A stretch of 27,522 bases of DNA from a virus, in IMG/VR virus record IMGVR_UViG_3300021963_000533, positions 1 through 27,522 of that record. The stretch is one strand, 5' to 3'. Numbering within the stretch: the stretch's first letter is position 1; each line of letters begins with the position of its first letter. The position numbers were made by a program, and so were the translations under genes. Positions 3,487 to 23,172 of the stretch are shown here, piece after piece. The notes under the pieces are model-generated. The model ran no database searches. It was not told the DNA's origin and saw only the letters and a program-made list of their open reading frames with translations.

Positions 3487-3659
3487 AAGAGCTACTCAAC
3501 CAACCTGAGGACAAGGTACTCACTAAGAGCACCCTTATTAAACTACAACGAGCTAAGAACAAAGCAACAGGATCCAAAGACAAAGAATGTTTCTGCTCAA
3601 TGGTGCGCCGTAAAGTATGGCTTAAAGACTTCCTTGTATGGTATGAAGGACTTTCTTGA
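3456..3659 (+). CDS. small basic hypothetical protein, 67 aa
   Basis: Not recognised. The reading frame is open further upstream to an ATG at 3351, but that part lies antiparallel in frame with the real membrane protein. The ATG at 3456 gives a coherent, charged, soluble 67-aa product: a leading MLEETDIQLIEELL helix, a Lys-rich middle (KLQRAKNKATGSKDKE), and CFCSMVRRKVWLKDFLVWYEG at the end. The overlap with the preceding gene is 31 nt and with the sigma-like gene 26 nt, a compact translationally coupled cluster. Possible DNA- or protein-binding accessory factor. Confidence 0.55.
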   Translation: MLEETDIQLIEELLNQPEDKVLTKSTLIKLQRAKNKATGSKDKECFCSMVRRKVWLKDFLVWYEGLS

Positions 3660-4185
3660 TCAATACATTACTTATAATTACTCTGAAGTGCTTAAATACA
3701 CACTTCACTTCATTAAGACCCTCAATATTCCTGATTCAATAGATGCCTCAGCTGTGATCAATAACGCTTACTTACACTGCATTGGGCTTGAAGTTCATTG
3801 TGAGTCAACTGACAAGGCAAAGAGCTATCTATTAAACACTATTAAGTATGAACTTATATGGACTCAAGGATCAAGAACTAAACGAGATGACGTGTATAGG
3901 TCTCAAGAGTATATTGGTGACCGTATAGACGATTCAACTGAGCTTGAACATAAGATAGACATTGAGGACAGATATAACTTTAAAAAGGCTATTGTTGAAA
4001 TATACCGTAACTCTATTGATGACAGGATAAAAAAGATTATCTTTGAGGCATACTATGACAAAGGTTACTCAACTCAGACTGCTCTTGCTAAATATTTCGG
4101 AATCAACAGTACATCAGCTTACTTCCTTATCAAAGAAATTAAAGAAAATATAAATCAAATACAATATAGGTATGAAGAGTGCTAA
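3634..4185 (+). CDS. divergent sigma-factor-like protein (candidate late transcription factor)
   Basis: The 183-aa architecture resembles a small sigma-70-type factor. Residues ~38-85 (SAVINNAYLHC, then AKSYLLNTIKYELIW with a basic RTKRDD after it) are placed like region 2. An acidic linker follows (~90-115), then a region-4-like segment (~118-172: KAIVEIYRNSIDDRIKKI, then STQTALAKYFGINSTSAYFLIKEI) with a helix-turn-helix. The match is by pattern, not by any strong signature, so an ArpU/late-activator-like regulator is an alternative. The start could also be the second ATG at 3643. The gene's last codons contain the first copy of the TACAATATAG element, placing this regulator at the boundary between early and late genes. 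Confidence 0.55.
   Translation: MYGMKDFLDQYITYNYSEVLKYTLHFIKTLNIPDSIDASAVINNAYLHCIGLEVHCESTDKAKSYLLNTIKYELIWTQGSRTKRDDVYRSQEYIGDRIDDSTELEHKIDIEDRYNFKKAIVEIYRNSIDDRIKKIIFEAYYDKGYSTQTALAKYFGINSTSAYFLIKEIKENINQIQYRYEEC
4160..4169 (+). promoter_or_regulatory. TACAATATAG element, copy 1
   Basis: Exact 10-mer TACAATATAG followed by GT and the ATG at 4172. It lies inside the last codons of the sigma-like gene and precedes the small membrane protein that heads the terminase region. First of five identical copies with identical spacing; candidate phage late promoter. Confidence 0.75.
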
Positions 4186-4336
4186 TATTATCGGTATGGC
4201 AACCTATCTAATCGGATGGGGGTTCGTAGTAAGTCTATTCACTGATAACTATGATCTAATGCGACAACTTGGAGCACTCACTTTGGCAGGTTATTTATTA
4301 TTCATTATAACAGAAAATTATGAGCATGAAAATTAA
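4172..4336 (+). CDS. small two-helix membrane protein, 54 aa
   Basis: A 54-residue product with two predicted membrane helices: residues ~5-23 (NIIGMATYLIGWGFVVSLF) and ~32-47 (LGALTLAGYLLFIIT), with short charged ends. Function unknown; it resembles many tiny phage membrane proteins. The start is supported by the TACAATATAG element ending 2 nt before the ATG, exactly as at four other genes. It overlaps the end of the sigma-like gene by 14 nt and the next gene by 17 nt. Confidence 0.62.
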   Translation: MKSANIIGMATYLIGWGFVVSLFTDNYDLMRQLGALTLAGYLLFIITENYEHEN

Positions 4337-4598
4337 AGAAGAGTACCTAACTAAGACTGTTAAGGTATACGATCGAGTACTTGGATCACGTACAATTGTA
4401 GTGGCTAAGATTGATATGAATAAGATACCATACTATCAATCCATTGGACTTGGGTATCTATTCGAGGACAGCACCTCAACAGAAGAGGTAAAGGTTATTA
4501 AGTACGAAGCTGTTGATGGACCAATCCCAGCTGAGACCCCTAAACCTAAGAAGAAACGCAAGAAGAAACCATCTGCTGAAGACAATGCCAAAGCATAA
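4320..4598 (+). CDS. hypothetical protein with Lys-rich tail, 92 aa
   Basis: Not recognised. The first ~65 residues look like a small beta-rich domain (KTVKVYDRVLGSRTIVVAKID and YYQSIGLGYLFED). Residues 70-92 are a proline/lysine tail (PKPKKKRKKKPSAED) suited to nucleic-acid contact. ATGs at 4320 and 4326 are both possible. The gene overlaps the terminase small subunit by 14 nt. Position directly before terS suggests an accessory packaging or DNA-binding role, but this is only context. Confidence 0.6.
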   Translation: MSMKIKEEYLTKTVKVYDRVLGSRTIVVAKIDMNKIPYYQSIGLGYLFEDSTSTEEVKVIKYEAVDGPIPAETPKPKKKRKKKPSAEDNAKA

Positions 4599-5004
4599 AT
4601 ACATTGAAACACCTGAGAAAATGTGGGAGTTATTCGAGGCATATAGGGATTGGTGCAAATCAAATCCAAGATATCAATACTCACTTTCAACTAAAACAGG
4701 TGTGGCTACTCCTGTACCTCTTGAGAGACCACTAACTCAAGTTGGATTCAGATGCTTTGCTGCTGAAAAAGGTAGCGCAGTACAAGATTATTTTGCTAAT
4801 ACAGATGGAAGATATTCTGAATATACGACAATCTGCTCGCGTATAGAGGAAGCAATTAGACAGGATCAGATTGAAGGAGGTATGGCAGGGCAATACAATC
4901 CTTCCATAACTCAACGACTAAACAACCTAACTGAAAGGGTAGATACAACCACTCAAGGTCAAGCTATCAATGAGGTGAAGGTTAATATTATAAAGCCTAC
5001 TTAA
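4585..5004 (+). CDS. terS: terminase small subunit
   Basis: Predicted DNA-recognition subunit of the packaging motor. The 139-aa product starts with PKHKYIETPEKMWELFEAYRDW, the usual helical N-terminus of Bacteroidota-phage small terminases, followed by PLERPLTQVGFRCF, a helix-turn-helix-like segment, and a C-terminal region ending in EVKVNIIKPT. The frame is open upstream to 4513, but that extension is a shadow of the Lys-rich gene, and the ATG at 4585 gives the family-like N-terminus. It is followed by a 74-nt AT-rich gap and the large subunit. Identification rests on context plus overall pattern. Confidence 0.72.
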   Translation: MPKHKYIETPEKMWELFEAYRDWCKSNPRYQYSLSTKTGVATPVPLERPLTQVGFRCFAAEKGSAVQDYFANTDGRYSEYTTICSRIEEAIRQDQIEGGMAGQYNPSITQRLNNLTERVDTTTQGQAINEVKVNIIKPT

Positions 5005-5078
5005 TATATATATATAGTAAGATAGGTTAATTGTCATAATACTAAATATAGTGTTATAGCTAAACTATTGCCTAAAAA
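5005..5078 (+). other. AT-rich gap before the large terminase
   Basis: This 74-nt non-coding gap starts with an alternating TA run and contains ACTAAATATAG at about 5041-5051, a degenerate relative of the TACAATATAG element but not next to an ATG. I see no confident promoter or hairpin. Confidence 0.3.
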
Positions 5079-6227
5079 ATGGAGATAAATAGTACGGTCA
5101 TATTTGAAAAGAACTTCAACGCCCTCAACTCAAATGTGAGATTCATAATCAATGAGGGCGGCTCAAGGAGTTCTAAGACCTACTCACTTTGTCAGTTGGT
5201 CATAGTCTATTGCTTGCAGAATAGAAACAAGGTAGTAAGTATCATAAGAAAAACCTTCCCCGCATTGAGAGCAACGGTCATGAGGGACTTCTTAGAGATC
5301 ATGAAGAACTTAGAGATATACGATGTCAATAAACACAATAAGAGTGAGCATATCTATTCCTTTGACAATGGGTCAATAGTTGAGTTCTTTTCAGTAGATG
5401 ATGAGCAAAAGATAAGAGGTAGGAAGAGAGACCTCGCATGGTGCAACGAAGCTAATGAATTATACTATGATGACTTTACTCAGCTGAACATGAGAACCGA
5501 AGGCAAGCTAATCTTTGATTACAATCCATCGGAGTCAAACTCATGGCTGTATGAATTACCATCTGAAGAGTCAATCCTAATCAAGTCAACTTACAAGGAT
5601 AACCCGTTCCTGCCTGAGTCTATCAAGAAACAGATTGAGGACTTAAAGAGAACTGATGAGGCACAATATCAAATCTATGCCTTAGGGGAGAAAGCCATAT
5701 CCAAGAGTAACATCTACTCCAATTGGACCTTTGTCAAGCATCGACCTGCTAAGTTTACATCTTATGTCTATGGACTTGACTTTGGGTATAACCACCCCAC
5801 TGCATTGGTTAGGGTATACTGGAGGGATAAGGATCTATACATTGAGCCTGTGATCTATGAGAGTTACTTAACAACAACTGACTTAATAGCACGCATGGAT
5901 CAGTTGGGTATTGAAAAGAGTATCAACATCCTTGCTGATTATTCACGCCCTGAGATCATTGCAGAGATAGATAGAGCAGGTTACTACATTGAGAATGCCA
6001 ACAAGGTAGTCAAGCAAGGTATTAACAACATCAAGTCATTTGGTATATTCTGCGAAGACCATCCAGCAATCAAAAAAGAATATGAGAATTACAAGTGGAA
6101 GAAAATAGGGGACACAATTACTGATGAGCCTGTCAAACTTTGGGATGATGCTATGGATGCTATTCGATATGCTGCCACTCATATCAAAGAAGAGTACTTT
6201 ACAGATGACTCATATCTATCCTTCTAA
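5079..6227 (+). CDS. terL: terminase large subunit (PBSX/XtmB-like ATPase-nuclease)
   Basis: Packaging motor ATPase and headful/site nuclease. The ATPase domain has Walker A GGSRSSKT at residues 27-34 and Walker B DLAWCNEAN at 118-126 with the catalytic Glu124. The C-terminal RNase H-like nuclease shows YGLDFGYNHPTALV (Asp234), ILADYSRPEI (Asp287) and LWDDAMDAIRYA with the third acidic position around 356-360. The 382-aa length is slightly short but complete for the PBSX type. Its start lies 74 nt after terS. Downstream, instead of the portal, come large tail genes, which is unusual. Confidence 0.95.
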   Translation: MEINSTVIFEKNFNALNSNVRFIINEGGSRSSKTYSLCQLVIVYCLQNRNKVVSIIRKTFPALRATVMRDFLEIMKNLEIYDVNKHNKSEHIYSFDNGSIVEFFSVDDEQKIRGRKRDLAWCNEANELYYDDFTQLNMRTEGKLIFDYNPSESNSWLYELPSEESILIKSTYKDNPFLPESIKKQIEDLKRTDEAQYQIYALGEKAISKSNIYSNWTFVKHRPAKFTSYVYGLDFGYNHPTALVRVYWRDKDLYIEPVIYESYLTTTDLIARMDQLGIEKSINILADYSRPEIIAEIDRAGYYIENANKVVKQGINNIKSFGIFCEDHPAIKKEYENYKWKKIGDTITDEPVKLWDDAMDAIRYAATHIKEEYFTDDSYLSF

Positions 6228-6244
6228 TTAAAATCTAACTTAAA

Positions 6245-6254
6245 TACAATATAG
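6245..6254 (+). promoter_or_regulatory. TACAATATAG element, copy 2
   Basis: Exact TACAATATAG, then TT and ATG at 6257, in the short gap after the large terminase. It heads the tail gene block (6257-13541). It decides the start: a second in-frame ATG at 6263 would break the constant 2-nt spacing. Confidence 0.75.
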
Positions 6255-6256
6255 TT

Positions 6257-7750
6257 ATGGGAATGTCAATCATAGCTGAGCCACAAGATTTCACACCGGC
6301 GTACAATGAAGTCAAGTTCATAGTGGACTCGACTAATAAGAACCTTGATGGGTTTAGATACATCTTTGAGATATATGAGTCAGGCACATTAAACAGGATA
6401 GGATACTACAAGGCATTACCAACATACGGCACTGGCTATGGTGAACAGGATGTAAGTAAGCTATTGAGCAATCAAGTAACCTTTGACTTTGACCCAGCTG
6501 TCACTACATTCTACGATGCGGCTAACTCATATTACAAGTATGATGTTAAGATAGGAGAGGAATATATCTACTCATTAGCTTACACAGCATCATTAGTAGA
6601 TAACGGTGGTAATGTACGCATCACAGCAACTCATGCATTTCAAGTAGGAGATCAAATCAATATTATTCAAGCTGATGGGGGTGTGGCTAATCCAGGCGTT
6701 GAGGGATTGCACACAGTGATTGCTATAACAGGAACGACTAACTTTACTATCAATGCATTATGGTCTGAGGTAACAGATGCCACTATCAATGGGACAGTTA
6801 AGTATGCTGATAATAGAAAAGATATTAACCTTGGCTTGTTAACAACTATTGATAAGTATGTATTCAATGGAGCTATTCCTTGGATAGATATGCCGTTCTA
6901 TGATGAGAATCTTTATACGCTTGACAATGTATCTGGGCAGTGGTTAACTAACCAGCCTACGAGCTTCCATTGTACACTGACTCAAGACTTATGGCTCAAT
7001 GCTAAGGATAACGGGGTGCAACTAAATGAAAGAGTTTACTTTGAGAATAGTAATGGAGATATATTTTATAAGTCAATTGCGGGAAGCCAATATATTAAAG
7101 GTGTGGCAGTTGGTCCTAATAACTTTGGCACATTAACATTGGTAAGTGGAACAGCTGGCTTGATTAAGGCATCAACAACTTACTATGATGTATGGTATAG
7201 TGATGGATTATTGAACCCTGTTAAGTCTATCAAGTACCGTATTATCTTAGATGAGAGGATTCAAATATCTGAGACTCATATCCTATTTTTAGATCGCATG
7301 GGTTCATGGAGTAGCTTTGCATTTCAACTTAAGACTTATGAGAAAGCTCAGGTCAAAAGAGAGGGATACAACAAGGACGTTAAGGGCTATGTGAGTAGCG
7401 GTCAATGGAAATATAATACTTATGAGCAAGGAATGATTAACTATTCAACTCAAGTATCTAAGACATACGACCTCAATACTAACTGGATGAGTGAGAATGA
7501 AGGCATCTACTTTCAAGAGTTAATAACATCACCTCAGACTTATCTAAGGAATGTGATCTATCGAATAACTGAAGACGTATTGAACTTATATGATGAAGAG
7601 GGTTGTGTGATTAGAGTTCCTGAGTTTACTGAGTATGTAAGTTGTAATGTGTTGACTAATAGCTTTGAAGTATATAAGCAACGTAATAACAACTTAATCA
7701 AACAAAGTATACAAGTAAGGTTATCCAATAACGATATAATCAATGGTTAA
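6257..7750 (+). CDS. tail/baseplate structural protein, 497 aa
   Basis: Large beta-rich protein without signal peptide or membrane segments. The N-terminus (AEPQDFTPAYNEVKFIVDST, ~7-26) and the following FRYIFEIYESGTLNRIGYYK strands recur in structural proteins of Bacteroidota phages. A middle segment (~110-185) reads as an all-beta insertion (GGNVRITATHAFQVGDQINI and FTINALWSEV) like a ubiquitin-activating/Ig-like tail domain. It lies directly upstream of another large tail protein and the tape measure, so it most likely belongs to the distal tail or baseplate. The stop overlaps the next gene by 8 nt. I cannot assign a precise subunit. Confidence 0.65.
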   Translation: MGMSIIAEPQDFTPAYNEVKFIVDSTNKNLDGFRYIFEIYESGTLNRIGYYKALPTYGTGYGEQDVSKLLSNQVTFDFDPAVTTFYDAANSYYKYDVKIGEEYIYSLAYTASLVDNGGNVRITATHAFQVGDQINIIQADGGVANPGVEGLHTVIAITGTTNFTINALWSEVTDATINGTVKYADNRKDINLGLLTTIDKYVFNGAIPWIDMPFYDENLYTLDNVSGQWLTNQPTSFHCTLTQDLWLNAKDNGVQLNERVYFENSNGDIFYKSIAGSQYIKGVAVGPNNFGTLTLVSGTAGLIKASTTYYDVWYSDGLLNPVKSIKYRIILDERIQISETHILFLDRMGSWSSFAFQLKTYEKAQVKREGYNKDVKGYVSSGQWKYNTYEQGMINYSTQVSKTYDLNTNWMSENEGIYFQELITSPQTYLRNVIYRITEDVLNLYDEEGCVIRVPEFTEYVSCNVLTNSFEVYKQRNNNLIKQSIQVRLSNNDIING

Positions 7751-10520
7751 GATAGTACTCAGCACAGGTGAGTTGGATGTATCTGAAAAGATAGTATTTC
7801 CAATAACATTTAACATCGGAGACATTAGAGATTTAACATCTCGCAAGGGAACATTCTCGAAAACCATTGTAATTGAGGGCACTAAGAACAATAATGAGTT
7901 GCTTGGTAATTATTATGATGTCAATATTCAAGCGGGAACATTTAACATCAATGCCTTAACTAAGTGTCAAGTTATACAGAATGGTGTGCCAATATTAGAT
8001 GAGGCTTTGCTTCAATTGGTAAGTGTTAATAAAGCTCAGTACTCTAATGCTTATGAAGAAGATGTTACTTATACGGTATTGATTAAAGATAGTAGAGCTG
8101 AGTTCTTCAGTGCTATTACCAATGCTAATCTGAATGACTTAGACTTTTCAGATCTTAACCATACTTTTGATTCAGCGGCTATTGTTGCAAGTTTCAATAA
8201 TACAGTAACCGATGGATTCAAGTATGTAATGCCTTACAATGAAACCAATATCTATCAAGTCAATGATTTTAAACCTGCTATATATGCAAAGACTTACTTT
8301 GATAGGATATTCAGTAATGCGGGGTTCACTTATACATGGACAGCATTAAGTGATGCTCACTTTGATAAGTTGTTAATTCCTTACAATGGTGATGTTAATA
8401 ATCAGGATTACACTGACTATTTAGTTCAAGCAACTAACACTTGGACCACAAGCTATGTACAACCAACGGGTATTAATGCAACCTTTCAAGAGAATATTGA
8501 CTCAGGATGGACAGAGGTAATTGATAGTCAAAACTTATACGATCCGACAACAGGTGAGTATAGTTCGCCATTTAATACAAGCGCAATACCAGGGGAGCAT
8601 TATATTCATGAGTTAGCAATCGGAGGTACTATTTCACTTGATAATACAAGTGGCGGTAATGCAATACTTGATTATGTTGTATCAGGATATACAGCCTCTC
8701 AAAGATATAGAGTCTTTGCTCAGGTGTTTGTATCTGGTTATGGTAGTGTAAAAGTATATGGTTCATCAGTAACTGTTGATTATCCTGCTTCAAGTCCTTT
8801 GCCTAATGGATCTACTACTATATTAACCTTTGCTACGACATTAAGCATACCTTCTCAAAGTGATGGGACTGCTCCTTCTATTGATGCTGGTGATATACAG
8901 ATTCTATCTATAGGAGTTGATGTTCAAGGATATTACTCTGGGATATTTCCTAATGTACCTACCTTGAATAATTTTTGGTATGATAATGCCTCAAATCTTG
9001 TAGATGTTAATGTGGTCCTTGACTTGACTTCAATTACATTGAATATCTTACCATCGAATAACTTACAGGTTGTTGGATCTAACTTAATAATAGATCAATA
9101 TGTCCCTGTTGAGATTAAGCAATCTGACTTTGTTAAGTCAATATTTCAGATGTACAACCTTTATATTGAGCAGGATATTGACAACCCTAATAACTTAATC
9201 TTATATCATAGAGATGAGTACTATGACTCGGGTGCTGAAAAGGACTGGAGTGCTAAGTTAGCAAGAGATAAGGATCAAGAGTTAATGTTCTTGCCTGATG
9301 TAACTAAGAAGAAATTAAAATTAACCTATGCGCCTGACGAGGACACCTCGAACGTAGTTTATACTCAAGTAACAGGTGAGACATACGGTCAAATAGAATA
9401 TACCTTTGACAATGAATATGTTAAGGATGTTGATACTAAGGAGCTATTGTTCTCCCCGACTCCAGTATATCGTACAATCTTTGGGGCTTATGTTCCTGCC
9501 TTGAATGGCTTAGCTCCTAATACTAACATCCGTATCTTGTATGATGGCGGTCAAGGTACGTGTCAACCATTTGATATAATAGATTTTGGAACAACGGGAC
9601 AGTTCTCAGTAACTGATTATCCTATGCTTGGACATTTCAACAATCCATTGTATCCAACCTTTGACATTAACTTTGGGACCAATGATTATTACTTTTATCA
9701 AGTTGGAGCATTAACATCAAACAACCTTTATAACTTATATTGGAGGCGAACTGTTAATCAGATCAACGTAGGTAAGATGTTGACGGCTTACTTTGATTTA
9801 AGAGAAACTGATATACAGTCATTGAAGCTCAATGATAAGATTTACATTGATAACTCATGGTGGAATATAAACAAGATTCAAGATTATAACGCTAATAACA
9901 ACAGCCTCACAAAGGTTGAGTTAATAAGCATTGATACTGAGATAGACTTGGCACCGTTCAAGGTTGCAAATGGCAATCCATTAGGAGATACAATAACATC
10001 TGTAGGGCTTGATAGCATATTCAAGTATAAGAATGAGAATAGTAATATTATCATGGAGGGTGCTGATGTTGTAGTTAAGGGTAGAGGTAATGTTGTGACT
10101 CAAGGAACTAAGGGCATAATCATAGGAGATAATCAATCTCTAAGTGATGACGGCATAGTAACTAAGAACTTAACTGTAACTGATACTATTAATGGTGCAC
10201 CTGTTGTGGCTTATAAGAAGTATATTGCTAATATTACTCAAGTAGGTATTGCTGATCCTGTATTGACTATCCTTGAGAACACTATAGGAGATATTGTATG
10301 GACACGAATAGGAGCAGGTCAGTATGATGGTGTATTAGTAGGAGCTTTCCCTACAGCGTCGAATGTTTATGCTATAATACAATCATTCAATATATACTCT
10401 GCTCACATTAGTATATACAATGCTGATCCTAACACATTACAGATATTTACACTTGATAATACCTATGCGCTTGTTGATGGGGTTTTATTTAATACAACAA
10501 TTGAAATAAGAGTTTACTAA
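7743..10520 (+). CDS. tail tip/baseplate protein with C-terminal fibre-like domain, 925 aa
   Basis: The N-terminal ~250 residues (KIVLSTGELDVSEKIVFPI, IGDIRDLTSRKGTFSKTIVI, TYFDRIFSNAGFTYTW) have the look of a hub/Tal-like domain common in Bacteroidota phages. A central Ser/Gly/Asn-rich beta region (~250-480) may be an inserted carbohydrate-binding or jelly-roll domain. After returning to a hub-like portion (~490-770), the chain changes near residue 775 into a beta-helix-like stretch (VVVKGRGNVVTQGTKGIIIG, then LTVTDTINGAPV) and a terminal domain typical of fibre tips. Its position before the tape measure, overlapping the previous gene, supports a distal tail role. Probably involved in host contact. 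Confidence 0.68.
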   Translation: MVKIVLSTGELDVSEKIVFPITFNIGDIRDLTSRKGTFSKTIVIEGTKNNNELLGNYYDVNIQAGTFNINALTKCQVIQNGVPILDEALLQLVSVNKAQYSNAYEEDVTYTVLIKDSRAEFFSAITNANLNDLDFSDLNHTFDSAAIVASFNNTVTDGFKYVMPYNETNIYQVNDFKPAIYAKTYFDRIFSNAGFTYTWTALSDAHFDKLLIPYNGDVNNQDYTDYLVQATNTWTTSYVQPTGINATFQENIDSGWTEVIDSQNLYDPTTGEYSSPFNTSAIPGEHYIHELAIGGTISLDNTSGGNAILDYVVSGYTASQRYRVFAQVFVSGYGSVKVYGSSVTVDYPASSPLPNGSTTILTFATTLSIPSQSDGTAPSIDAGDIQILSIGVDVQGYYSGIFPNVPTLNNFWYDNASNLVDVNVVLDLTSITLNILPSNNLQVVGSNLIIDQYVPVEIKQSDFVKSIFQMYNLYIEQDIDNPNNLILYHRDEYYDSGAEKDWSAKLARDKDQELMFLPDVTKKKLKLTYAPDEDTSNVVYTQVTGETYGQIEYTFDNEYVKDVDTKELLFSPTPVYRTIFGAYVPALNGLAPNTNIRILYDGGQGTCQPFDIIDFGTTGQFSVTDYPMLGHFNNPLYPTFDINFGTNDYYFYQVGALTSNNLYNLYWRRTVNQINVGKMLTAYFDLRETDIQSLKLNDKIYIDNSWWNINKIQDYNANNNSLTKVELISIDTEIDLAPFKVANGNPLGDTITSVGLDSIFKYKNENSNIIMEGADVVVKGRGNVVTQGTKGIIIGDNQSLSDDGIVTKNLTVTDTINGAPVVAYKKYIANITQVGIADPVLTILENTIGDIVWTRIGAGQYDGVLVGAFPTASNVYAIIQSFNIYSAHISIYNADPNTLQIFTLDNTYALVDGVLFNTTIEIRVY

Positions 10521-10521
10521 T

Positions 10522-13092: not shown

Positions 13093-13541
13093 CAAGTTAT
13101 CAAGCCCTAATCAATGAAATAATAGCATTCTATAATGACCATCTACAGGTTAAGAAAGTAGGTAGTGACTTTGTAGAGCAGTTGCCTAACTTTGCAACAA
13201 AGGATGAGAAATACCCTCTTGTGTTTATAGCTCCTATCACAGCAATACCAAGTGAGAACACTAATAGTATAAGCCTTGAGATATATTGTCTTGACATCAT
13301 TCAAAAAGATAGAGCTAATATAACGGTGATCTTATCGGACTGCCATCAAATACTTGTTGACTTGTTTAATTACTTTACATTTAGTAGTAACTATTCCTTT
13401 GATGTATTAGGCCAACCATCCTTACAACCTTTGAATAATCAACTTCTTGACTATGCTGCTGGATGGGTCATGAGTTTAGATGTTGATATGAGTAACTGGA
13501 CAGATTGTCAAGTGCCTCTTGTAACAAATTTACCTCAATAA
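13089..13541 (+). CDS. tail-completion/neck-like protein, 150 aa
   Basis: A 150-aa alpha/beta protein whose pattern (helix ALINEIIAFYNDHL, strand YPLVFIAPITAIPSE, then SISLEIYCLDI) matches small tail-terminator or minor-tail proteins found near tape measure genes in Bacteroidota phages. It starts on a 4-nt overlap with the tape measure gene. The helix QILVDLFNYF and the late strands are compatible with the gpU/tail-terminator fold, but this is inference from pattern and place. It is the last gene before a TACAATATAG element. Confidence 0.55.
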   Translation: MTSYQALINEIIAFYNDHLQVKKVGSDFVEQLPNFATKDEKYPLVFIAPITAIPSENTNSISLEIYCLDIIQKDRANITVILSDCHQILVDLFNYFTFSSNYSFDVLGQPSLQPLNNQLLDYAAGWVMSLDVDMSNWTDCQVPLVTNLPQ

Positions 13542-13551
13542 TACAATATAG
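13542..13551 (+). promoter_or_regulatory. TACAATATAG element, copy 3
   Basis: Exact TACAATATAG, then TT and the ATG at 13554. It begins immediately after the stop of the preceding gene and heads the fibre/neck block (13554-15899). Confidence 0.75.
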
Positions 13552-13553
13552 TT

Positions 13554-14618
13554 ATGCCAATAGATAGAAGTAAAATATCAAACATGACTCCCAAGGGATC
13601 TGACCTTGATCCAACTGACTTAATAGAGGTTAGTGTTGATAGTGGATCAGGTTATGTCACTCGATCTATAACGGGTCAAGAGATTATTAATGGCTCAGCA
13701 GGTAATTTTGTTCCTTATACAGGAGCAACTCAAGATGTTGATTTAGGCGAGTATGAGTTAAAGGCAGGTCAACTCACATTAGATACATCACCAACAGGGA
13801 CTGCATCTGTAGGAACTACAAGATGGAATGATACATCAGGTAGTTCAGAAACAACATTAAAGGGTGGTAATGTTATCCTTAAGAACGGCGTTGATTTAGT
13901 TGCAAGAGTTGTTAATAAAGTTGTCCCTAATGCTACATTGACAAAGGCTAACTATACAGCTGTTAAAGTATCAGGAGCACAAGGTCAAAGACTTGCTGTT
14001 GATTATGCTCAGGCAGATAATGACTTGAACTCAGCTGATACTATAGGACTTGTTACAGAAACAATTGCAACTAATCAAGAGGGTTTTATCATAACAGTTG
14101 GTCAACTTGAAGAAATAAATACAACAGGAAGTCTACAAGGTGAGACATGGTCAGATGGTGATGTCCTTTACTTATCTCCAACAACTGCAGGAGCATTGAC
14201 CAATGTAAAACCAACTGGAGCAACAGGTCATATTGTAGTGATAGGTTATGTTGAGTATGCTCATGCTGTTCATGGTAAGATTTATGTAAAGATTATGAAC
14301 GGATGGGAGCTTGATGAGTTGCATAATGTTTATATAAGTTCAGTTCAAAAAGGTGATTCATTAGAGTATAATGGTTCTTTATGGGTCAATGTTGGTATAA
14401 AGTACACAGTTGAGTTAATTGATGCTTTGACTGTTGACTTTTATGCGCCTTATAACTTAAAGATTCAATCAGTTACGAACATATTAAACAGTCCTACTAC
14501 AACTATTCTTGATGATGGGGCTTCTTATACACTTGGCAATACAATAGCCTCAGGAAGTAAAATAACAGTGACTGTAAATACAGCGGCTGTTGTAACATTA
14601 AACATTATTAAGGCATGA
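13554..14618 (+). CDS. tail fibre / receptor-binding structural protein, 354 aa
   Basis: Beta-rich, Gly/Thr/Ser-rich protein with phage-fibre features. An N-terminal segment PTDLIEVSVDSGSGYVTRSI is followed by the repeat unit FVPYTGATQDVDLGEYEL (~53-70), which recurs in Bacteroidota-phage fibres. A compact domain spans ~105-250 (QGQRLAVDYAQADN, WSDGDVLYLSPTTAGALT, GHIVVIGYVEYAHAVHGKIY). The C-terminal 70 residues form strands ending VTLNIIKA, similar in style to the tip of the 925-aa protein. No peptidase motif is seen. It is followed with a 4-nt overlap by the lectin-like tip gene, suggesting a fibre shaft plus tip pair. Confidence 0.68.
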   Translation: MPIDRSKISNMTPKGSDLDPTDLIEVSVDSGSGYVTRSITGQEIINGSAGNFVPYTGATQDVDLGEYELKAGQLTLDTSPTGTASVGTTRWNDTSGSSETTLKGGNVILKNGVDLVARVVNKVVPNATLTKANYTAVKVSGAQGQRLAVDYAQADNDLNSADTIGLVTETIATNQEGFIITVGQLEEINTTGSLQGETWSDGDVLYLSPTTAGALTNVKPTGATGHIVVIGYVEYAHAVHGKIYVKIMNGWELDELHNVYISSVQKGDSLEYNGSLWVNVGIKYTVELIDALTVDFYAPYNLKIQSVTNILNSPTTTILDDGASYTLGNTIASGSKITVTVNTAAVVTLNIIKA

Positions 14619-15235
14619 GTCAAGACTTATATATCAAAGCTCGTGCGGTTTCTTCAAGAACCACAGCTAAGTTAATGAAAACAGGTCAAACTACTTCTTA
14701 TCGTACAGGTGACGATGGTGATATTGAAGCTGGAAGAGCAACTAATTTTACAACACTTGCTGAGAATAATCCTTTTGGAAACACGAATAGATTTACAGAT
14801 GAGTTAGGCGGTACAACATATACCAATAACATAGTAATTGATTGGTCAACTTATGACGGTTCAACAGTATTAGGTTGGAGGCGTACAAGTAATGGGGCGG
14901 ATATAAATTGGGACAACTCAATAGATGGAGCATTAGCAGTAAGCATAGGCAGTTTTACAACGGGGTGGAGATTGCCAAATATTCAAGAATTATTTTCATT
15001 GGCAAAATTAGACCAACAACCATTGAATTATTCTCCTTTAAACTTAGGGGCAACACAACACAATTACTGGTCATCAACTACATTTTATAATGGAACAACA
15101 AATGCTTTTAGGTTAATTAATCAATCAAACGCAGCTGCTGGTTTAATATCATCATCAGTTTCAAAAACAGCAACATCCTTAAATAGATACATACCTTGCA
15201 GAGTATTCACAGTAACAGGAACAACACTATCATGA
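14615..15235 (+). CDS. DUF1566/Lcl-C-like (C-type-lectin-like) adhesin tip, 206 aa
   Basis: Contains the DUF1566 pattern: TGQTTSYRTGDDGDIEAGR at 22-40, NPFGNTNRFTDELGG at 52-66, IDWSTYDG at 74-81, WRLPNIQELFSLAKLDQQP at ~118-136, and HNYWSSTTFYNGTTNAF (149-165), with a closing IPCRVF. This fold is the C-type-lectin-like scaffold used in surface adhesins and in some diversified phage receptor-binding proteins. No signal peptide is present, consistent with a virion protein. The gene overlaps both neighbours by 4 nt, so it belongs with the fibre. The Asn/Ser/Thr-rich C-terminal third is where variable ligand contacts sit in this fold. Confidence 0.75.
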   Translation: MSQDLYIKARAVSSRTTAKLMKTGQTTSYRTGDDGDIEAGRATNFTTLAENNPFGNTNRFTDELGGTTYTNNIVIDWSTYDGSTVLGWRRTSNGADINWDNSIDGALAVSIGSFTTGWRLPNIQELFSLAKLDQQPLNYSPLNLGATQHNYWSSTTFYNGTTNAFRLINQSNAAAGLISSSVSKTATSLNRYIPCRVFTVTGTTLS

Positions 15236-15465
15236 TATATAAATTTCCACAGTTTAATGTAGGCATTGAGAACCCTACAATTACAGTAAACCTTAACACA
15301 ATTAGTGATAAGGCGCTTGATCAACTTTTAGCAGTTGATGTATTACTCACAACAGATACGGCTTCTTTTGGTGTTCGTGCTGAAGATATGCCATATATAG
15401 GCACTTGGGAGGATGATGAAATACAAGGCATGGTTAATGATTGGTTAGTTCAATTTGAGGTATAA
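15232..15465 (+). CDS. small structural-block protein, 77 aa
   Basis: Not assigned. The frame is open to an ATG at 15196, but the ATG at 15232 overlaps the previous stop in an ATGA arrangement and gives a sensible beta-rich N-terminus (MIYKFPQFNVGIENPTITV). It is acidic toward the C-terminus (MPYIGTWEDDEIQGMVNDWL). Comparable small proteins sit between fibre and neck genes in Bacteroidota phages. It abuts the next gene by 1 nt (TAATG). Possible minor virion protein or assembly factor. Confidence 0.6.
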   Translation: MIYKFPQFNVGIENPTITVNLNTISDKALDQLLAVDVLLTTDTASFGVRAEDMPYIGTWEDDEIQGMVNDWLVQFEV

Positions 15466-15899
15466 TGGCACGCTACGCAAATAATGGTATATTCAATGTC
15501 AAGTATCCAACAAGGAGAAAGATTCAAGTGATATTACAAAGGTTAATTGCTGAGGCGGGTGCTATTGATACAGGTGCTTTATATGATTCAGTGCGTATCA
15601 ATGCAAATATACCTGCACTTGGTGAACTTGAGATTCAAATAATAGCTATGTATTACTTTGGATTTTTGAATAATGGTACAATATACATTGCTCCTTATGA
15701 CTTTTGTGCTGAACTTACAAGAAGGTTAGATAGTGAAGGAATAACAGCAGAAATTTATTCTCAATATACTGAATGGATGACTCAACGATATCCTATTTTG
15801 CAAGTGGCAAATATACTTGGCGAAAAGCGTTCTATCATTTATACATTTGAACCACTTGATGGAGATTTTACAGCACCGTTATCATTTAGAGGGCTTTAA
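15465..15899 (+). CDS. HK97 gp10-like neck/tail-completion protein (tentative), 144 aa
   Basis: A 144-aa protein with a basic N-terminal helix (TRRKIQVILQRLIAE), then the segment AGAIDTGALYDSVRI (~30-44), which is the type of DTG-x-L-x-x-S motif seen in gp10-like head-tail joining proteins. Strands follow (GELEIQIIAMYYFGFLNNG), then a C-terminal helical part. The assignment is tentative. It ends the plus-strand fibre/neck block and converges with the minus-strand pair, overlapping by 4 nt at 15896-15899 without an obvious terminator. Confidence 0.5.
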   Translation: MARYANNGIFNVKYPTRRKIQVILQRLIAEAGAIDTGALYDSVRINANIPALGELEIQIIAMYYFGFLNNGTIYIAPYDFCAELTRRLDSEGITAEIYSQYTEWMTQRYPILQVANILGEKRSIIYTFEPLDGDFTAPLSFRGL

Positions 15900-16621
15900 A
15901 TATTAAGCTCCTTTTTCATTGCCAACATATTAAAGGTAAGGATTAAAGGCAAGTCAGTTACTTCCTTCATCTTAGTTAGATCCTCATTGCATAGACTATA
16001 GAGTAGCCGTTCCCATGACCATTTAACAGCACTCTTTTTTTCTTGATCCGCTTTCTTATCCTCAGGTGTCTCAGGCGGTTCATCCTCATCAATGCTATCT
16101 GACTCGAATAACAATTCATACTTACCCATGAATGTTTCTCTAAATGATAGGTATTCGGGTATTATGCCATAGATGTCATTTATATTATACTCATCAAACA
16201 ACTCATGCCTATCAAATGGATTAAACTTATAAGGCTCAAAGACTAACTCACCCCACTCATTGATTGAATGCTTTCGGTAACAGATAGAGGCTATATGTCC
16301 AATGTGTTTAGTATAATCATTTGAGAAGAAATATTCCATATCAATGAACTCACCTGTTGTGAGCTTAGATAATGGCTTGAACTTCCACTCGTCAAGGTCA
16401 TGTTTATAGTTTTTAGATGGTTCAGAGTTTATAAATGTAATATCTCTAAGCATCGAGCTTACCTCACTTACATCTAAGTCCTCTAAGTCATCTGAACTAA
16501 TATCGGCAAGTGTGGCAAGTATCTCAATCTCTCGTGTGAATGTTTCTTCTATAGAGTAAAGTTCCCGTATCTCTTTAAACTGTAAAACATCTATCTCATT
16601 CCACGACTTTGGCAGGTTCAT
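15896..16621 (-). CDS. minus-strand tail-chaperone-like protein B, 241 aa
   Basis: One of two adjacent minus-strand genes. Its N-terminal ~100 residues resemble those of its upstream neighbour: LPKSWNEIDVLQFKEI here against IPNQLNELTVQQFEDI there, followed in both by a long helix, an acidic DLEDLDVSEV / DFEDTSIEDF segment and a later helix ending EYF / KAM. The remainder (residues ~100-241) is unique and includes a charged linker (DEDEPPETPEDKKADQEKK) and a C-terminal KWSWERLLYSLCNEDLTKM helix. An in-frame ATG at 16654 would add 11 residues; I prefer 16621 because it aligns with the paralogue's start. It overlaps gene A by 26 nt in the +1 frame. The genomic setting suggests tail-assembly chaperones, but the family is not recognised. 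Confidence 0.6.
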   Translation of the reverse strand: MNLPKSWNEIDVLQFKEIRELYSIEETFTREIEILATLADISSDDLEDLDVSEVSSMLRDITFINSEPSKNYKHDLDEWKFKPLSKLTTGEFIDMEYFFSNDYTKHIGHIASICYRKHSINEWGELVFEPYKFNPFDRHELFDEYNINDIYGIIPEYLSFRETFMGKYELLFESDSIDEDEPPETPEDKKADQEKKSAVKWSWERLLYSLCNEDLTKMKEVTDLPLILTFNMLAMKKELNI

Positions 16622-17141
16622 TCTTAGGTAATTCTTTTGAAAGTTTAGAACCAATTTCAGCTAAGTAAGGAACAGCAAGAGCCGCTTTTTGTTCACGTAT
16701 TAATTTTGCTTTGTGCTTGATATGTGCCTCAGCATAATGCTCAGTCTTAGTAAGGTCTTCACGTTTGAATAAAATAGCAAGTATCTCAGAGATATAACCT
16801 TTGTGCCTTGATGCCATAGCCTTCTCAATATGCTTAGTGTCACGTACTGATAGTTTGAACTCAGTATCAAAGGCAGTATATTTATATCCATCAAGCTCAA
16901 TTGAGTTCACTATCTTTTTAGCGCCTTTGATATTATTGAAGTCCCTTACATAGGCTTTAAAATCCTCGATTGAGGTATCCTCAAAATCCTCTTCTTTGAT
17001 TCCTAATAGTTCAAACACTGCAAGGTGCTTTTCTATTGCATCAAGATCCTGTTTAGCGTGAATGTTTGTAATGTCTTCAAACTGCTGCACCGTTAACTCA
17101 TTGAGTTGATTGGGTATTTTTTTACCTAAAATTTCTACCAT
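16596..17141 (-). CDS. minus-strand tail-chaperone-like protein A, 181 aa
   Basis: A 181-aa acidic, helical protein, first gene of the only minus-strand operon. The domain shared with protein B spans about residues 8-110. The rest is helical (DTKHIEKAMASRHKGYISEILAILF, then AEAHIKHKAKLIREQKAAL). Two consecutive genes with a shared N-terminal domain, a short out-of-frame overlap and a place among head/tail genes recall the G/GT pair of tail-assembly chaperones, but here the second protein carries its own copy of the domain rather than gaining it by frameshift. No classical slippery heptamer was seen in the overlap. The leader is AT-rich. Confidence 0.6.
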   Translation of the reverse strand: MVEILGKKIPNQLNELTVQQFEDITNIHAKQDLDAIEKHLAVFELLGIKEEDFEDTSIEDFKAYVRDFNNIKGAKKIVNSIELDGYKYTAFDTEFKLSVRDTKHIEKAMASRHKGYISEILAILFKREDLTKTEHYAEAHIKHKAKLIREQKAALAVPYLAEIGSKLSKELPKNEPAKVVE

Positions 17142-17157
17142 AGATTTTAATTTTTAA

Positions 17158-17165
17158 CAAATATA
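17158..17165 (-). promoter_or_regulatory. host-type -7 box for the minus-strand pair
   Basis: Read on the minus strand the sequence is TATATTTG, an exact TAnnTTTG -7 box 16 nt upstream of the ATG at 17141. No clear -33 TTG lies at the proper distance, so the promoter is incomplete. It is back to back with the TACAATATAG element at 17174-17183. Confidence 0.4.
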
Positions 17166-17173
17166 ACACTTTC

Positions 17174-17183
17174 TACAATATAG
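17174..17183 (+). promoter_or_regulatory. TACAATATAG element, copy 4
   Basis: Exact TACAATATAG, then GC and the ATG at 17186. It lies in the 44-nt space between divergent genes, so a plus-strand promoter must be here or arise by read-through from antisense territory. This strengthens the promoter reading of the element. Confidence 0.8.
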
Positions 17184-17185
17184 GC

Positions 17186-18178
17186 ATGGATAGACCCGTC
17201 TATAAAATTACTATTGACCCTGAGTACAGCGATGGCGAAGAGTTAGGTATGTCAATGATTGCCTTTACTTCAAAGCCTGCTATCAAGGTTAAAGGTATGG
17301 CATTCAATGCCGCTGTTCCTATGACATTTAAAGATGACGTTAAGATGCGTATTGTGGCACCTGCCATGATACCGATGCAAATCTACAGAAGAGATGAGGA
17401 TGGCTTTGAATATGATGTTCAATTCACAGCTGAGGTCATTGAGTCTATTCATGCAAAGTTCATGCAGGATCTTAAGAATAAAGATATTTTCAACTTAGAG
17501 CATGATGCTGAAGAGAAAGTACCTGCTTATATTCTTGAGGCATGGATAGTTGACAATCCAAAGGAGGATAAAGCATTCAGCACTTATGGTATTGATGTAC
17601 CTAAGGGGACATTGATGCTGGTTAGTCAGGTGACAGATAAAGAGTACTATGATAGCTTAGTTGAGTCAGATCAAATAGGATATTCAATAGAGGGCTTCCT
17701 TGGATTAAAGATGTCGGAAATTTTAAAACTAAATACAATGAAGTTACCTGATGGAGAACATTTGATTGAAGGTAAGATATACGTCGTAAAAGATGGCGAG
17801 GTTATCGAGATCAAAGAAGAAACTAAAGAAGAAATGGCTGCAGAAGAGCCAGCTACTGAAGAGGCTGAGCAAGAAGCTGAGACAACTGTAAGTGATGCTG
17901 AAGAGGATGTACAAGAGGAAGAGGAAGAGACAGCTGCTGAGGATGTTGCTATGGCTGTTGATCCTGCTACTGATGCAGAGGCTGTACTTGCAATAGTTAT
18001 GCCTGTGATTGAGGAGCAAGTTACACAGCTTGTTGCTATGATTGCTGATTTAAAAAACCAACTTGAAGAGGCATTGAGTGCTGAGACAGTTGAAGAAGAG
18101 ATTGATCTTACAAAGGATGTTAAGATGAGTTCTCGAGAATTATTTAAAGAATTTGTAAAATTTTCAAAAACCAAATAA
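17186..18178 (+). CDS. XkdF-like prohead protease fused to an acidic scaffold-like tail, 330 aa
   Basis: Residues 1-175 follow the XkdF-type prohead serine protease: MRIVAPAMIPMQIYRRDEDG (54-73), YDVQFTAEVIESI (76-88), NLEHD with the likely catalytic His106, EAWIVDN (118-124), YGIDVPKGTLML (134-145) and GYSIEGFLG with the likely catalytic Ser167. Residues ~205-330 switch to a Glu/Ala-rich, coiled-coil-like tail (EEEEETAAED at 244-253; MPVIEEQVTQLVAMIADLKNQL at 272-293) with a short basic end. That tail looks like a scaffold, as in protease-scaffold fusions. The gene lies 1 nt before the major capsid gene. It probably guides shell assembly and cleaves scaffold and possibly capsid. Confidence 0.85.
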   Translation: MDRPVYKITIDPEYSDGEELGMSMIAFTSKPAIKVKGMAFNAAVPMTFKDDVKMRIVAPAMIPMQIYRRDEDGFEYDVQFTAEVIESIHAKFMQDLKNKDIFNLEHDAEEKVPAYILEAWIVDNPKEDKAFSTYGIDVPKGTLMLVSQVTDKEYYDSLVESDQIGYSIEGFLGLKMSEILKLNTMKLPDGEHLIEGKIYVVKDGEVIEIKEETKEEMAAEEPATEEAEQEAETTVSDAEEDVQEEEEETAAEDVAMAVDPATDAEAVLAIVMPVIEEQVTQLVAMIADLKNQLEEALSAETVEEEIDLTKDVKMSSRELFKEFVKFSKTK

Positions 18179-18179
18179 A

Positions 18180-19115
18180 ATGAACCGTAAATTAAAATTT
18201 GATTTAGAGGTAGAAACTAATGCTTTGCTATGTGCAAACCCTGATGAGTTCTACTCAAAGGCGTATCTTACACAAGAAGATATTCCTAACAACTTCCGTA
18301 CCTTACCGGGTATCAAATCTAAAACTAAGTTAGCCAATGTAACTTTTGGATCAATCCTACAAGCATCTACTTGTAACTTTAATGCTCCAACTGATTCATT
18401 GGATGCTGTTGACATCGACGTATGTCCTTTGTCTGCAATGGCTCAGTTATGTCAATTTGACTTAGAGCAATCATTCTTAGCATTGCAAATGTCAAAAGGA
18501 TCTAATGGTGATTTCACTGTTGCATCTTTTATGTCATACTACTGGAATGAAATGGCTGCTCAAATCGGTCAAGACATTGAGTTGCTAAGATGGCAAGGTG
18601 ATGTTGAGTCTGAGGATACTTTGTTATCTCTTTGTAATGGATACATCAAACAATTGTGTGGTGATGGTTCTATCGCTGCTGGTCTTTATGCAGGTGCTAT
18701 TGATAGCACGAATGTACTTGCTACATTTGAAACTGTATTAAATGCTGCTCCATCTGCAATCGTTCGTAAAAAAGCTGACTTGAGATTTTATGTTTCAACT
18801 AACGTAGCTCAGGCTTATGAATTAGCTGCTGCATCAGGTAACACGATGACTTATGTTACATTACCATTAGGATTAACTTTCTTAGGTATCAATGTAGTTG
18901 TGTGTGAGGGTATGGCTGACAACACTATCGTATTGACTTTGAAAAATAACCTTATCTATGCATTTGATGCTGAAGGTGATGACAAAGCATTGAAAGCTGT
19001 TAACTTAAATGACTCAGTTGCTGAGCCTTATTTGAGAACAAGAGCTAACATGAAAGTTGGATTCCACTATGTGAACCCTGCTGAGATCGTTGTTTATAAC
19101 GTTTGCTTCGATTAA
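18180..19115 (+). CDS. major capsid protein (HK97-type fold expected), 311 aa
   Basis: Main shell protein, assigned by its place directly after the protease/scaffold gene, its size, and patterns typical of Bacteroidota-phage capsids: DIDVCPLSAMAQLCQFDLEQ in the first half, a long FMSYYWNEMAAQIGQDIELLRWQG helix-like spine (about residues 117-140), LRFYVSTNVAQAYELAA, LGLTFLGINVVVCEGM and a closing VGFHYVNPAEIVVYNV strand. It holds eight or so cysteines, more than usual. The leader is strongly A-rich (CAAATAAAATG), a known feature of well-translated Bacteroidota genes. A strong terminator follows the stop. Confidence 0.88.
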   Translation: MNRKLKFDLEVETNALLCANPDEFYSKAYLTQEDIPNNFRTLPGIKSKTKLANVTFGSILQASTCNFNAPTDSLDAVDIDVCPLSAMAQLCQFDLEQSFLALQMSKGSNGDFTVASFMSYYWNEMAAQIGQDIELLRWQGDVESEDTLLSLCNGYIKQLCGDGSIAAGLYAGAIDSTNVLATFETVLNAAPSAIVRKKADLRFYVSTNVAQAYELAAASGNTMTYVTLPLGLTFLGINVVVCEGMADNTIVLTLKNNLIYAFDAEGDDKALKAVNLNDSVAEPYLRTRANMKVGFHYVNPAEIVVYNVCFD

Positions 19116-19125
19116 ACTATAAGTA

Positions 19126-19151
19126 AGGGGGTGTTAAAGCCCCCTATTTTT
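19126..19151 (+). terminator. intrinsic terminator after the major capsid gene
   Basis: AGGGGG (19126-19131) pairs with CCCCCT (19140-19145) around an 8-nt loop, followed by ATTTTTAA. It lies 10 nt after the capsid stop. Partial read-through would be needed to reach the tail tube gene, because no TACAATATAG copy follows. Confidence 0.8.
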
Positions 19152-19172
19152 AACAATTAAAAAATTAACACA

Positions 19173-19694
19173 ATGAGCTGTGCAACATTAGAAACAATTT
19201 TAAAATCTTGCGACAACAACTCTGGAGGGATCTATAAGTTCTATGTTAATCAACAAGACAACATTGATGTTGTGACTACTGATGAAACAGGAACTAATTG
19301 GATCGTTGACGGAATAACATTAGTTGATCCGAATTTGCCCTTTATAGAGTTAGAGTTTAGAAGAAATGTGTCCTCTTATACTGAGGACTCTGCTATTGAC
19401 TTGATCAACGGTTCAAGTTATGTAACTGCTACTATAAACTTGATGTTTCATAGAAGAGATCAAGAGAAGTCAAGAGCTATTAAAGTTCTTGGGTCTGGTC
19501 AACAATATTTGGCTGGTATTGTACAAGATGCAAATGGTAAATACTGGTGGTTCCCTTACTTGCAAGTTTCTGCAACAGGTGAAGGATCAGGAACAACTCG
19601 AGCTGATGGTTCAAAATATTCAGTTACTTTGGTTGCTGAAAATGAGTTCCTTGCTTATGAGGTTGATGCAACTATTATCCCAGGATTACTATAG
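19173..19694 (+). CDS. major tail tube protein (probable), 173 aa
   Basis: A 173-aa beta-rich protein following the major capsid gene. Strands are evident: GGIYKFYVNQQDNIDVVTTD, LPFIELEFRRNVSSYTED (~53-70), SSYVTATINLMFHRRD (~81-96), YLAGIVQDANGKYWWFPYL and SKYSVTLVAENEFLAYEV. This alternation and length suit a tail tube subunit; a family-specific signature is not visible. The N-terminus has two cysteines (positions 3 and 13). The leader is A-rich (AAATTAACACAATG), suggesting high expression. It is flanked by terminators on both sides (19126-19151 and 19713-19740). Confidence 0.65.
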   Translation: MSCATLETILKSCDNNSGGIYKFYVNQQDNIDVVTTDETGTNWIVDGITLVDPNLPFIELEFRRNVSSYTEDSAIDLINGSSYVTATINLMFHRRDQEKSRAIKVLGSGQQYLAGIVQDANGKYWWFPYLQVSATGEGSGTTRADGSKYSVTLVAENEFLAYEVDATIIPGLL

Positions 19695-19712
19695 TCTCGC
19701 CATAGATTATGT

Positions 19713-19740
19713 AAGAGCCTCACTTCGGTGGGGCTTTTTT
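19713..19740 (+). terminator. strong intrinsic terminator after the tail tube gene
   Basis: AGCCTCAC (19716-19723), tetraloop TTCG, GTGGGGCT (19728-19735; one T-G pair), extended by A-T pairs at the base and followed by a T-run to 19740. It is a textbook rho-independent terminator, 19 nt after the stop at 19694. Confidence 0.9.
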
Positions 19741-19759
19741 AATTATTTAATCTATTAAG

Positions 19760-19769
19760 TACAATATAG
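19760..19769 (+). promoter_or_regulatory. TACAATATAG element, copy 5
   Basis: Exact TACAATATAG, then AT and the ATG at 19772. It lies only 20 nt after a strong terminator, so the portal/lysis operon needs a fresh promoter here. This is the best single argument that the element is a promoter. Confidence 0.85.
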
Positions 19770-19771
19770 AT

Positions 19772-20107
19772 ATGATATATCTTGAAAAGGATAGTGTAAA
19801 CAGTTTTGTTTTGACCTTAACAGAGGTTGCAACAATAAGCAACCCTTTCTATTTATTTGAATTTGAAGATGAGTTTAATACATCTCTTGATCCAATATAC
19901 TGGGAAGGTACTGATACCTCACCTTATCCTGAGAGATACAACCTTTTCACCTTTGATGAGCCAACAGATGGAGCCTTGATCAAAGGTCAGTATAAATATA
20001 AAGTTTATGAAAGCCTTATACCTACTCTTGATCCTACAGGATTGAACATGATTGAAGAGGGTCGGATGGTTGTGGCTGGCGTAGCAGTTAATTCAATATA
20101 TGACTAA
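19772..20107 (+). CDS. conserved phage structural-block protein, 111 aa
   Basis: An acidic beta-rich protein of a style I recognise from Bacteroidota phages: MIYLEKDSVNSFVLTLTE, then NPFYLFEFEDEF, and a C-terminal EEGRMVVAGVAVNSIYD. Related proteins often sit beside portal or neck genes, but their exact role is not known to me. Here it is the first gene after a terminator and a TACAATATAG element, and its stop overlaps the portal ATG by 1 nt (TAATG). No membrane segment. A minor virion protein is a reasonable guess. Confidence 0.65.
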   Translation: MIYLEKDSVNSFVLTLTEVATISNPFYLFEFEDEFNTSLDPIYWEGTDTSPYPERYNLFTFDEPTDGALIKGQYKYKVYESLIPTLDPTGLNMIEEGRMVVAGVAVNSIYD

Positions 20108-21423: not shown

Positions 21424-21989
21424 ACTACTTTATAACAGAAAACTATTTAAAGACAAACACTCCTATTACATTCAATGTTGATGTAACAGATGTTACGCCT
21501 TACATAGCTACTCAATCACAGCTTAGAGTGATGCCTATCTTAGGCACTATCTTTTATAATCATTTATTAGCAGCTTATAATGCTCAGACATTAACACCTG
21601 AAGAGGAAGATCTTGTATCATTTATACAACCTGTGATTGCATGGAGATCAGCTGAGGATGCTGTTTTTGGATTGACTTACCAACTTAAGAATAAAGGACT
21701 TCAAACTCAGTTCGGTGACTTTTCAGGATCGGTAACACGTTCAGAGGTTGCCTTTGGAATGGAGCACTATGCACAAAAGGCTTCATTCTTTGAAACAAGA
21801 TTAACAAGATACTTGATAGCTAATAAAGATTTGTATCCTATATTTATATCAGAGGCAAATAAAGACACCGACCTAAGACCAATGATTGACCATTGTAACT
21901 GCAATTGCAATGGTTTTTGTGATAATAGCTGCCCTTGTTTTGGCAACTATAGAGAGAATGGATATAATAATAGCATATTGATTTTGTGA
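21420..21989 (+). CDS. head-tail connector-like protein (DUF6712-type) with Cys-rich tail, 189 aa
   Basis: Residues 1-150 look like the helical adaptor proteins that follow portals in Bacteroidota phages (ITENYLKTNTPITFNVDVTD, IATQSQLRVMPILGTIFY, LVSFIQPVIAWRSAEDAVF, MEHYAQKASFFETRLTRYL). The last 31 residues are distinct: cysteines at 159, 161, 163, 167, 171 and 173 in a CxCxCxxxCxxxCxC pattern, followed by an Asn/Tyr tail. This could bind metal or form disulfides in the virion; the adaptor fold itself does not need it. The gene overlaps the portal gene by 4 nt and the next gene by 4 nt. Confidence 0.7.
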   Translation: MNYFITENYLKTNTPITFNVDVTDVTPYIATQSQLRVMPILGTIFYNHLLAAYNAQTLTPEEEDLVSFIQPVIAWRSAEDAVFGLTYQLKNKGLQTQFGDFSGSVTRSEVAFGMEHYAQKASFFETRLTRYLIANKDLYPIFISEANKDTDLRPMIDHCNCNCNGFCDNSCPCFGNYRENGYNNSILIL

Positions 21990-23169: not shown

Positions 23170-23172
23170 GTT

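Follow-up and report, generated by a model that had tools for sequence, protein, structure and literature searches.

The window analysed here is the whole 27,522-base stretch of a viral contig, and since the source record consists of this contig only, genome-wide questions were moved to its relatives. The 10-mer TACAATATAG occurs in the window in five exact copies (4160, 6245, 13542, 17174 and 19760), each of them on the plus strand with an ATG at +12, two nucleotides 3′ of the 10-mer, and the positions, orientation and spacing given in a preliminary description of this DNA were thereby recovered. Under a first-order Markov model for the window, 0.11 copies would be expected for the plus and 0.08 for the minus strand, and about 0.003 copies with an ATG at the same spacing, which bears out the excess over chance claimed earlier. 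No further exact copy is present, as had also been stated, and the sole one-mismatch copy, at 15677, lies away from any start codon. A plausible gene is opened by each of the five ATGs, and the blocks that the 10-mer heads are those for packaging (4172), tail (6257), a second probable tail (13554), protease/capsid (17186) and portal-to-lysis (19772).

The 10-mer belongs to a larger element of which it forms the conserved core, with a weaker upstream part 17–18 nt before AATATA, and the five sites are referred to below as the candidate promoters P1 to P5, all on the plus strand. At P1 the −33 element is ATTAAAGA (4138–4145; ATTAAACA in relatives), 17 nt before AATATA, and the −10 element with its discriminator, TACAATATAGGT (4160–4171), is located inside the 3′ end of a sigma-like gene. 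The predicted +1 is 4172, and the P1 operon (4172–6227) encodes proteins of 54 and 92 aa, the small terminase (4513–5004) and the large terminase (5079–6227). P2 combines a weak −33 element, TCTAATTA (6223–6230; TCTAAACA in relatives), with the −10 element TACAATATAGTT (6245–6256) and a predicted +1 at 6257; its operon (6257–13541) encodes proteins of 497 and 925 aa, the tape measure (856 aa) and a 150-aa protein. At P3, TTGTAACA (13519–13526) is separated by an 18-nt spacer from a −10 element that again reads TACAATATAGTT (13542–13553), and from the predicted +1 at 13554 the operon extends to 15899 with proteins of 354, 206 (with an Lcl_C domain), 89 and 144 aa. The Lcl_C-domain protein of this second tail block (14615–15235) is possibly a receptor-binding or display protein. 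Two minus-strand genes of 181 and 252 aa (starts 17141 and 16654) occupy 15896–17141 within the late region.

P4 is situated between divergent genes, in a gap of 44 bp (17142–17185), and P5 follows a strong intrinsic terminator (19713–19738) whose T tract runs into its −33 element; both placements agree with the preliminary description and are counted as support for promoters at these sites. The −33 element of P4 is TTTTAACA (17152–17159; TTTGAACA or TTTTAACA in relatives) and its −10 element TACAATATAGGC (17174–17185), with a predicted +1 at 17186 and an operon (17186–19694) for the prohead protease (Peptidase_S78_2), a virion structural protein that is the probable major capsid protein, and a 173-aa protein. 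The same gap holds a minus-strand TATATTTG (17165–17158), a match to the host −7 box that shares bases with the −33 element of P4; relatives retain TTTGAACAAATATA, and both roles may underlie this conservation. P5 comprises a weak −33 element, TTTAATTA (19738–19745; TGAACA or TTTAACA in relatives), and the −10 element TACAATATAGAT (19760–19771), with a predicted +1 at 19772. Its operon (19772–23442) encodes a 111-aa protein, the portal, a DUF6712 protein, small proteins and a probable endolysin (22621–23169). The abutment of terminator and P5 is retained in relatives.

A terminase search of viral contigs yielded at least about 600 related stretches, the best 80 of which are 91–98% identical. 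The terminase loci of these 80 (991 kb) contain 172 exact copies of TACAATATAG in a single orientation, followed by nnATG in 139 cases and by GTATA(A) in 33. Whole relatives of about 29–31 kb have about five copies each, at the same five gene starts and in one strand; those with six are over-length or have apparently overlapping ends, and a count of four in record G006 is explained by a real variant, TTCAATATAGGGTATG, at P4. Scatter away from gene starts, or absence from close relatives, had been named beforehand as evidence that would speak against the motif, and neither was seen in the relatives. An alignment of 198 unique sites gives the close-relative consensus TACAATATAGGTATG, in which G at position 11 reaches 93% (class-weighted) and conservation falls on either side. 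One-mismatch copies in close relatives number 54 away from starts versus 2 at starts. In one clade P1 reads TACAATATAGGTATAAAG / GTATAAAG and the ATG lies 15 nt beyond the predicted +1; since the element is unchanged there, it is not tied to the start codon. The clade reading GTATAAAG is missing the 54-aa gene (4172–4336 in the window), and its P1 mRNA would carry a 15-nt leader.

A search of bacterial genome contigs with the portal found one relative, 72% identical, in a contig of a pond metagenome-assembled genome, and this led to a second, distant set of viral contigs. The pond contig itself (29.6 kb) is a complete-looking relative and probably represents a binning error or an infecting phage. 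In the distant lineages the portal is about 60–72% and the sigma-like protein about 42–49% identical, and the element takes the form xxAATATAGGT or xACAATATAAGT. The signal is found at the same five gene starts and consists of TT(G/A/T)AACA, 16–18 nt, AATATA, usually GGT or AGT, and then ATG or GTG; several distant copies read TTTGAACA. The pattern AACA-N14-18-AATATA has 51 matches on both strands of ten near-complete distant genomes, and 50 of them are at the five orthologous starts, whereas a control with both parts reversed gave 10 matches in the same genomes. The spacer at the 50 sites is 17 nt in 34, 16 nt in 10 and 18 nt in 6. At P4 and P5 of the distant lineages the ATG is shifted 1–3 nt further from the element.

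When the −33 profile derived from the distant phages was applied to the window sites, its maximum fell at exactly 17 nt (P = 5e-5 for the sites jointly, relative to shuffles of the upstream sequence), with a clear element at P3 and P4, a borderline one at P1 and P5 and a weak one at P2. In the window lineage the −33 element has degenerated, at P1, P2 and P5 of this phage, and the −10 part is fixed as TACAATATAG at all five sites. A generic sigma-70 promoter scan performed no better on real than on shuffled sequence (78 versus 77). A scan of viral contigs for AAACA-N16-17-AATATAGGTATG gave no indication, among the matches listed, that any other family has the promoter; these matches belong to the same phage family apart from a handful of apparently chance ones that lack an open frame or the expected protein. 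One shared promoter-like signal is thus present at the heads of the late operons and not elsewhere, and its two elements stand at a constrained spacing, as expected of a late regulon.

The last gene before the late region (3643–4185, plus strand) encodes a putative ECF-type sigma factor of 180 aa that starts MKDFL; a TTG at 3634 was considered as its start and was rejected in favour of 3643 as it is not conserved in the orthologue alignment. Over nearly its whole length the protein matches TIGR02937 (sigma70-ECF) with E = 2.4e-4, and the best orthologue reaches 1.1e-5, but the 20.8 bits of the window protein are below the curated cut-off of 42.9. The distant orthologues match other sigma profiles, all of them under the curated cut-offs. 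A Pfam search of the protein returned matches at chance level only, and a PDB sequence search with the sigma alignments found no sigma factor. A first AlphaFold2 model from 17 close sequences (pLDDT 61) was too weak to be used, while 26 sequences including the distant orthologues gave a model with pLDDT 79, with helical N- and C-terminal parts and a low-confidence linker at residues 77–96. Its top PDB matches in Foldseek are sigma factors (best E = 1e-3, probability 1.00), comprising a chain of an RNA-guided transcription complex (E = 1e-3), SigL of M. tuberculosis, SigmaE and sigma32 of E. coli, AlgU and sigma28. By model and structural match, the ORF has sigma2 and sigma4 domains with a flexible linker. 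The best reading of ORF 3643–4185 is a divergent ECF-type sigma factor, sigma-like by its predicted fold and by partial profile matches and not a curated family member.

The close relatives have orthologues of this gene, as does each of the 15 distant records (E 1e-49 to 1e-57), and a sigma-like protein of 174–181 aa is encoded directly 5′ of the first site in every genome checked. P1 is situated within the gene (4160–4185) and encodes the C-terminal IQYRY, of which Q-Y-x-Y is invariant in the orthologues; constraint on the promoter, and not on the protein, may explain this. A tblastn search retrieved no cultivated phage with the sigma-like protein or the portal.

The nearest terminases, at about 33%, are those of Parabacteroides, Bacteroides and Flavobacterium phages, and the window phage also encodes a DUF3127 protein, a domain that we take to be associated with the Bacteroidetes; on these two grounds the host is probably a member of that phylum. 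In F. johnsoniae the −7 element begins with T at −12 and A at −11, and transcription starts 4–5 nt after the element (PMC6847099). Applying this register (T1 at −12) to TACAATATAG places the predicted +1 on the A of the ATG. Among the 50 distant sites the predicted +1, the fourth base after AATATA, coincides with the ATG or GTG in 40 and precedes it by 1–3 nt in 10, and the base at this position is A in 40, G in 8 and T in 2. Late mRNAs should accordingly be leaderless or carry leaders of 1–3 nt, since with a +1 at the A of the start codon the message would begin there and be translated leaderlessly. Misassignment of the ATGs is unlikely because the start position and the residues that follow (MIY..., MA...) are kept across lineages. 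In bacterial leaderless genes of the TA-led type the start codon is preceded, at about 12 bp, by a TANNNT box that resembles a −10 element, and the predicted register of P1–P5 matches this pattern (PMC3160421). Transcripts of F. johnsoniae are mostly leadered according to RNA-seq (PMC6847099). If the spacing of phiEco32 (start 6–8 bp past the element; PMC8948821) were valid here, transcription would begin no earlier than the end of the start codon and the ATG would be cut off.

We consider it very likely that the five 10-mers are the −10 parts of five late promoters that are read by the phage sigma factor and yield leaderless late mRNAs. The full promoter would consist of TT(G/A/T)AACA at −33, a spacer of 16–18 nt (usually 17) and AATATA within the −10 box TACAATATAG, with the +1 about four bases after AATATA. 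Early genes would be read by the host polymerase; the phage sigma (3643–4185) would accumulate and redirect the host core RNA polymerase to P1–P5, which together would serve the packaging, tail, capsid, portal and lysis genes. The first transcribed base would be the A of the start codon or, in some relatives, a base 1–3 nt before it, and translation would be leaderless. We infer the late timing of the P1–P5 genes from gene content alone. A phage-specific late promoter had been proposed in the preliminary description, and the recurrence of the element at the corresponding genes of relatives both close and distant, its lack of scatter, its bipartite sigma-type structure and the co-presence of a sigma-like gene uphold that proposal. 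The upstream element, the sigma gene at 3643–4185 and the leaderless geometry are additions to it.

P1–P5 could instead be promoters read by the primary or an alternative sigma factor of the host, with the phage protein doing something else. Host Bacteroidetes promoters combine a TTTG at −33 with a −7 element that starts with TA, at a similar spacing (PMC6847099), and the distant copies that read TTTGAACA fit such a reading. However, AATATAG lacks the TTTG of TAnnTTTG, a box that TACAATATAG had already been said not to resemble, and the sites do not conform to Bacteroidetes sigma-A. The five late operons have one signal in common that the other genes of these genomes are without, and a sigma-fold gene always stands at the boundary of early and late genes; we regard recognition by a host sigma as unlikely.

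The fixed distance of 2 nt to the ATG in the window could also be taken to indicate a translation signal, that is, a phage-specific ribosome-binding or Kozak-like sequence on an mRNA that starts further upstream, the more so as initiation in Flavobacterium does not use Shine-Dalgarno and is modulated by the bases directly 5′ of the start codon (PMC6847099). Yet the element keeps its place where the start codon is shifted by 1–3 nt or by 15 nt, which argues for a signal in DNA rather than one for ribosome binding. The element moreover has a partner 16–18 nt upstream, and late genes internal to the operons, e.g. the capsid gene, are without it, so that a translational role is very improbable. 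The end of the T7 promoter resembles TATAGG just before the start, and this would favour a phage RNA polymerase of the single-subunit, T7-like kind as the enzyme that reads the sites. The bipartite structure, with its spacer of 17 nt, suits sigma promoters, the three longest proteins have no Pfam match, and PF00940 was not matched in 20 records, a weak point given that the search's own control was likewise without a match; a polymerase of this kind is highly improbable. For an operator beside ordinary promoters, bound by an activator or repressor of the phage (e.g. RinA-like), speak the weak matches of 15 of the 17 close orthologues of the 180-aa protein to TIGR01636 RinA (best E = 0.0013); the score of 15.7 bits is below the cut-off of 31.9. 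The similarity of the protein to sigma factors extends over both domains, and the element stands where a −10 would be expected from the start codon, with no separate promoter seen upstream, so that an operator is hardly credible.

The late system of T4, in which the sigma factor gp55 is paired with one AT-rich −10 box at the late genes, resembles that predicted for the window phage. T4 late promoters need the sliding clamp and gp33 and have no −35 element, whereas the window phage has a −33 element. Late sigma factors that have promoters of their own are already known in phages, namely in phiEco32 (gp36) and phage 7-11 (gp47) (PMC8948821). gp36 is likewise a small phage sigma, and several middle/late promoters of phiEco32 with a highly conserved AT-rich element (tAATGTAtA) head its gene blocks, but this is a single element without a −35, transcription starts 6–8 bp beyond it and the phage infects E. 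coli (PMC8948821). The window phage differs in that its element has a −33 partner and abuts the start codon. The late promoters of SaPh711_gp47 are also bipartite, GTAAtg-(16)-aCTA with a spacer of about 16–17 nt, but their consensus is unrelated and leaderless geometry is not reported in the accessible part of that account (PMC8948821).

The sigma2-linker-sigma4 layout is shared with the ECF (group 4) sigma factors, such as SigH and SigL of M. tuberculosis and SigmaE of E. coli. The −35 of SigH, GGAACA, resembles the TGAACA of the phage family, and its optimal spacer is 17 bp (PMC6411747). In contrast to these factors, the phage protein scores below the curated cut-offs and its −10 is the AT-rich AATATAG instead of the GTT of SigH. 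Bacterial leaderless genes are a host trait with a sigma-70 −10 box (PMC3160421), whereas in the phage the predicted trait is confined to one sigma regulon. A literature search, largely confined to journals outside subscription, found no report of a TACAATATAG-type promoter, and the leaderless late regulon, as well as the phage family with its consensus and start-codon-fused geometry, appear to be new.

The sigma gene and its five promoters would make up a complete, testable late regulon for an abundant and apparently uncultivated phage family, most of whose proteins are without assigned function. The divergence between lineages (TACAATATAG, xACAATATAAG and xxAATATAGG, with sigma factors that are 42–49% identical) makes the specificity of promoter and sigma testable. 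Systematic leaderless late mRNAs are predicted in probable Bacteroidetes hosts, one studied member of which has mostly leadered transcripts (PMC6847099). On balance we lean towards a phage family that has a private late sigma and start-codon-fused promoters and in which all late operons are leaderless-headed. Such phages would thus, late in infection, also alter the start of translation, by 70S or leaderless initiation, in hosts whose mRNAs are normally leadered.
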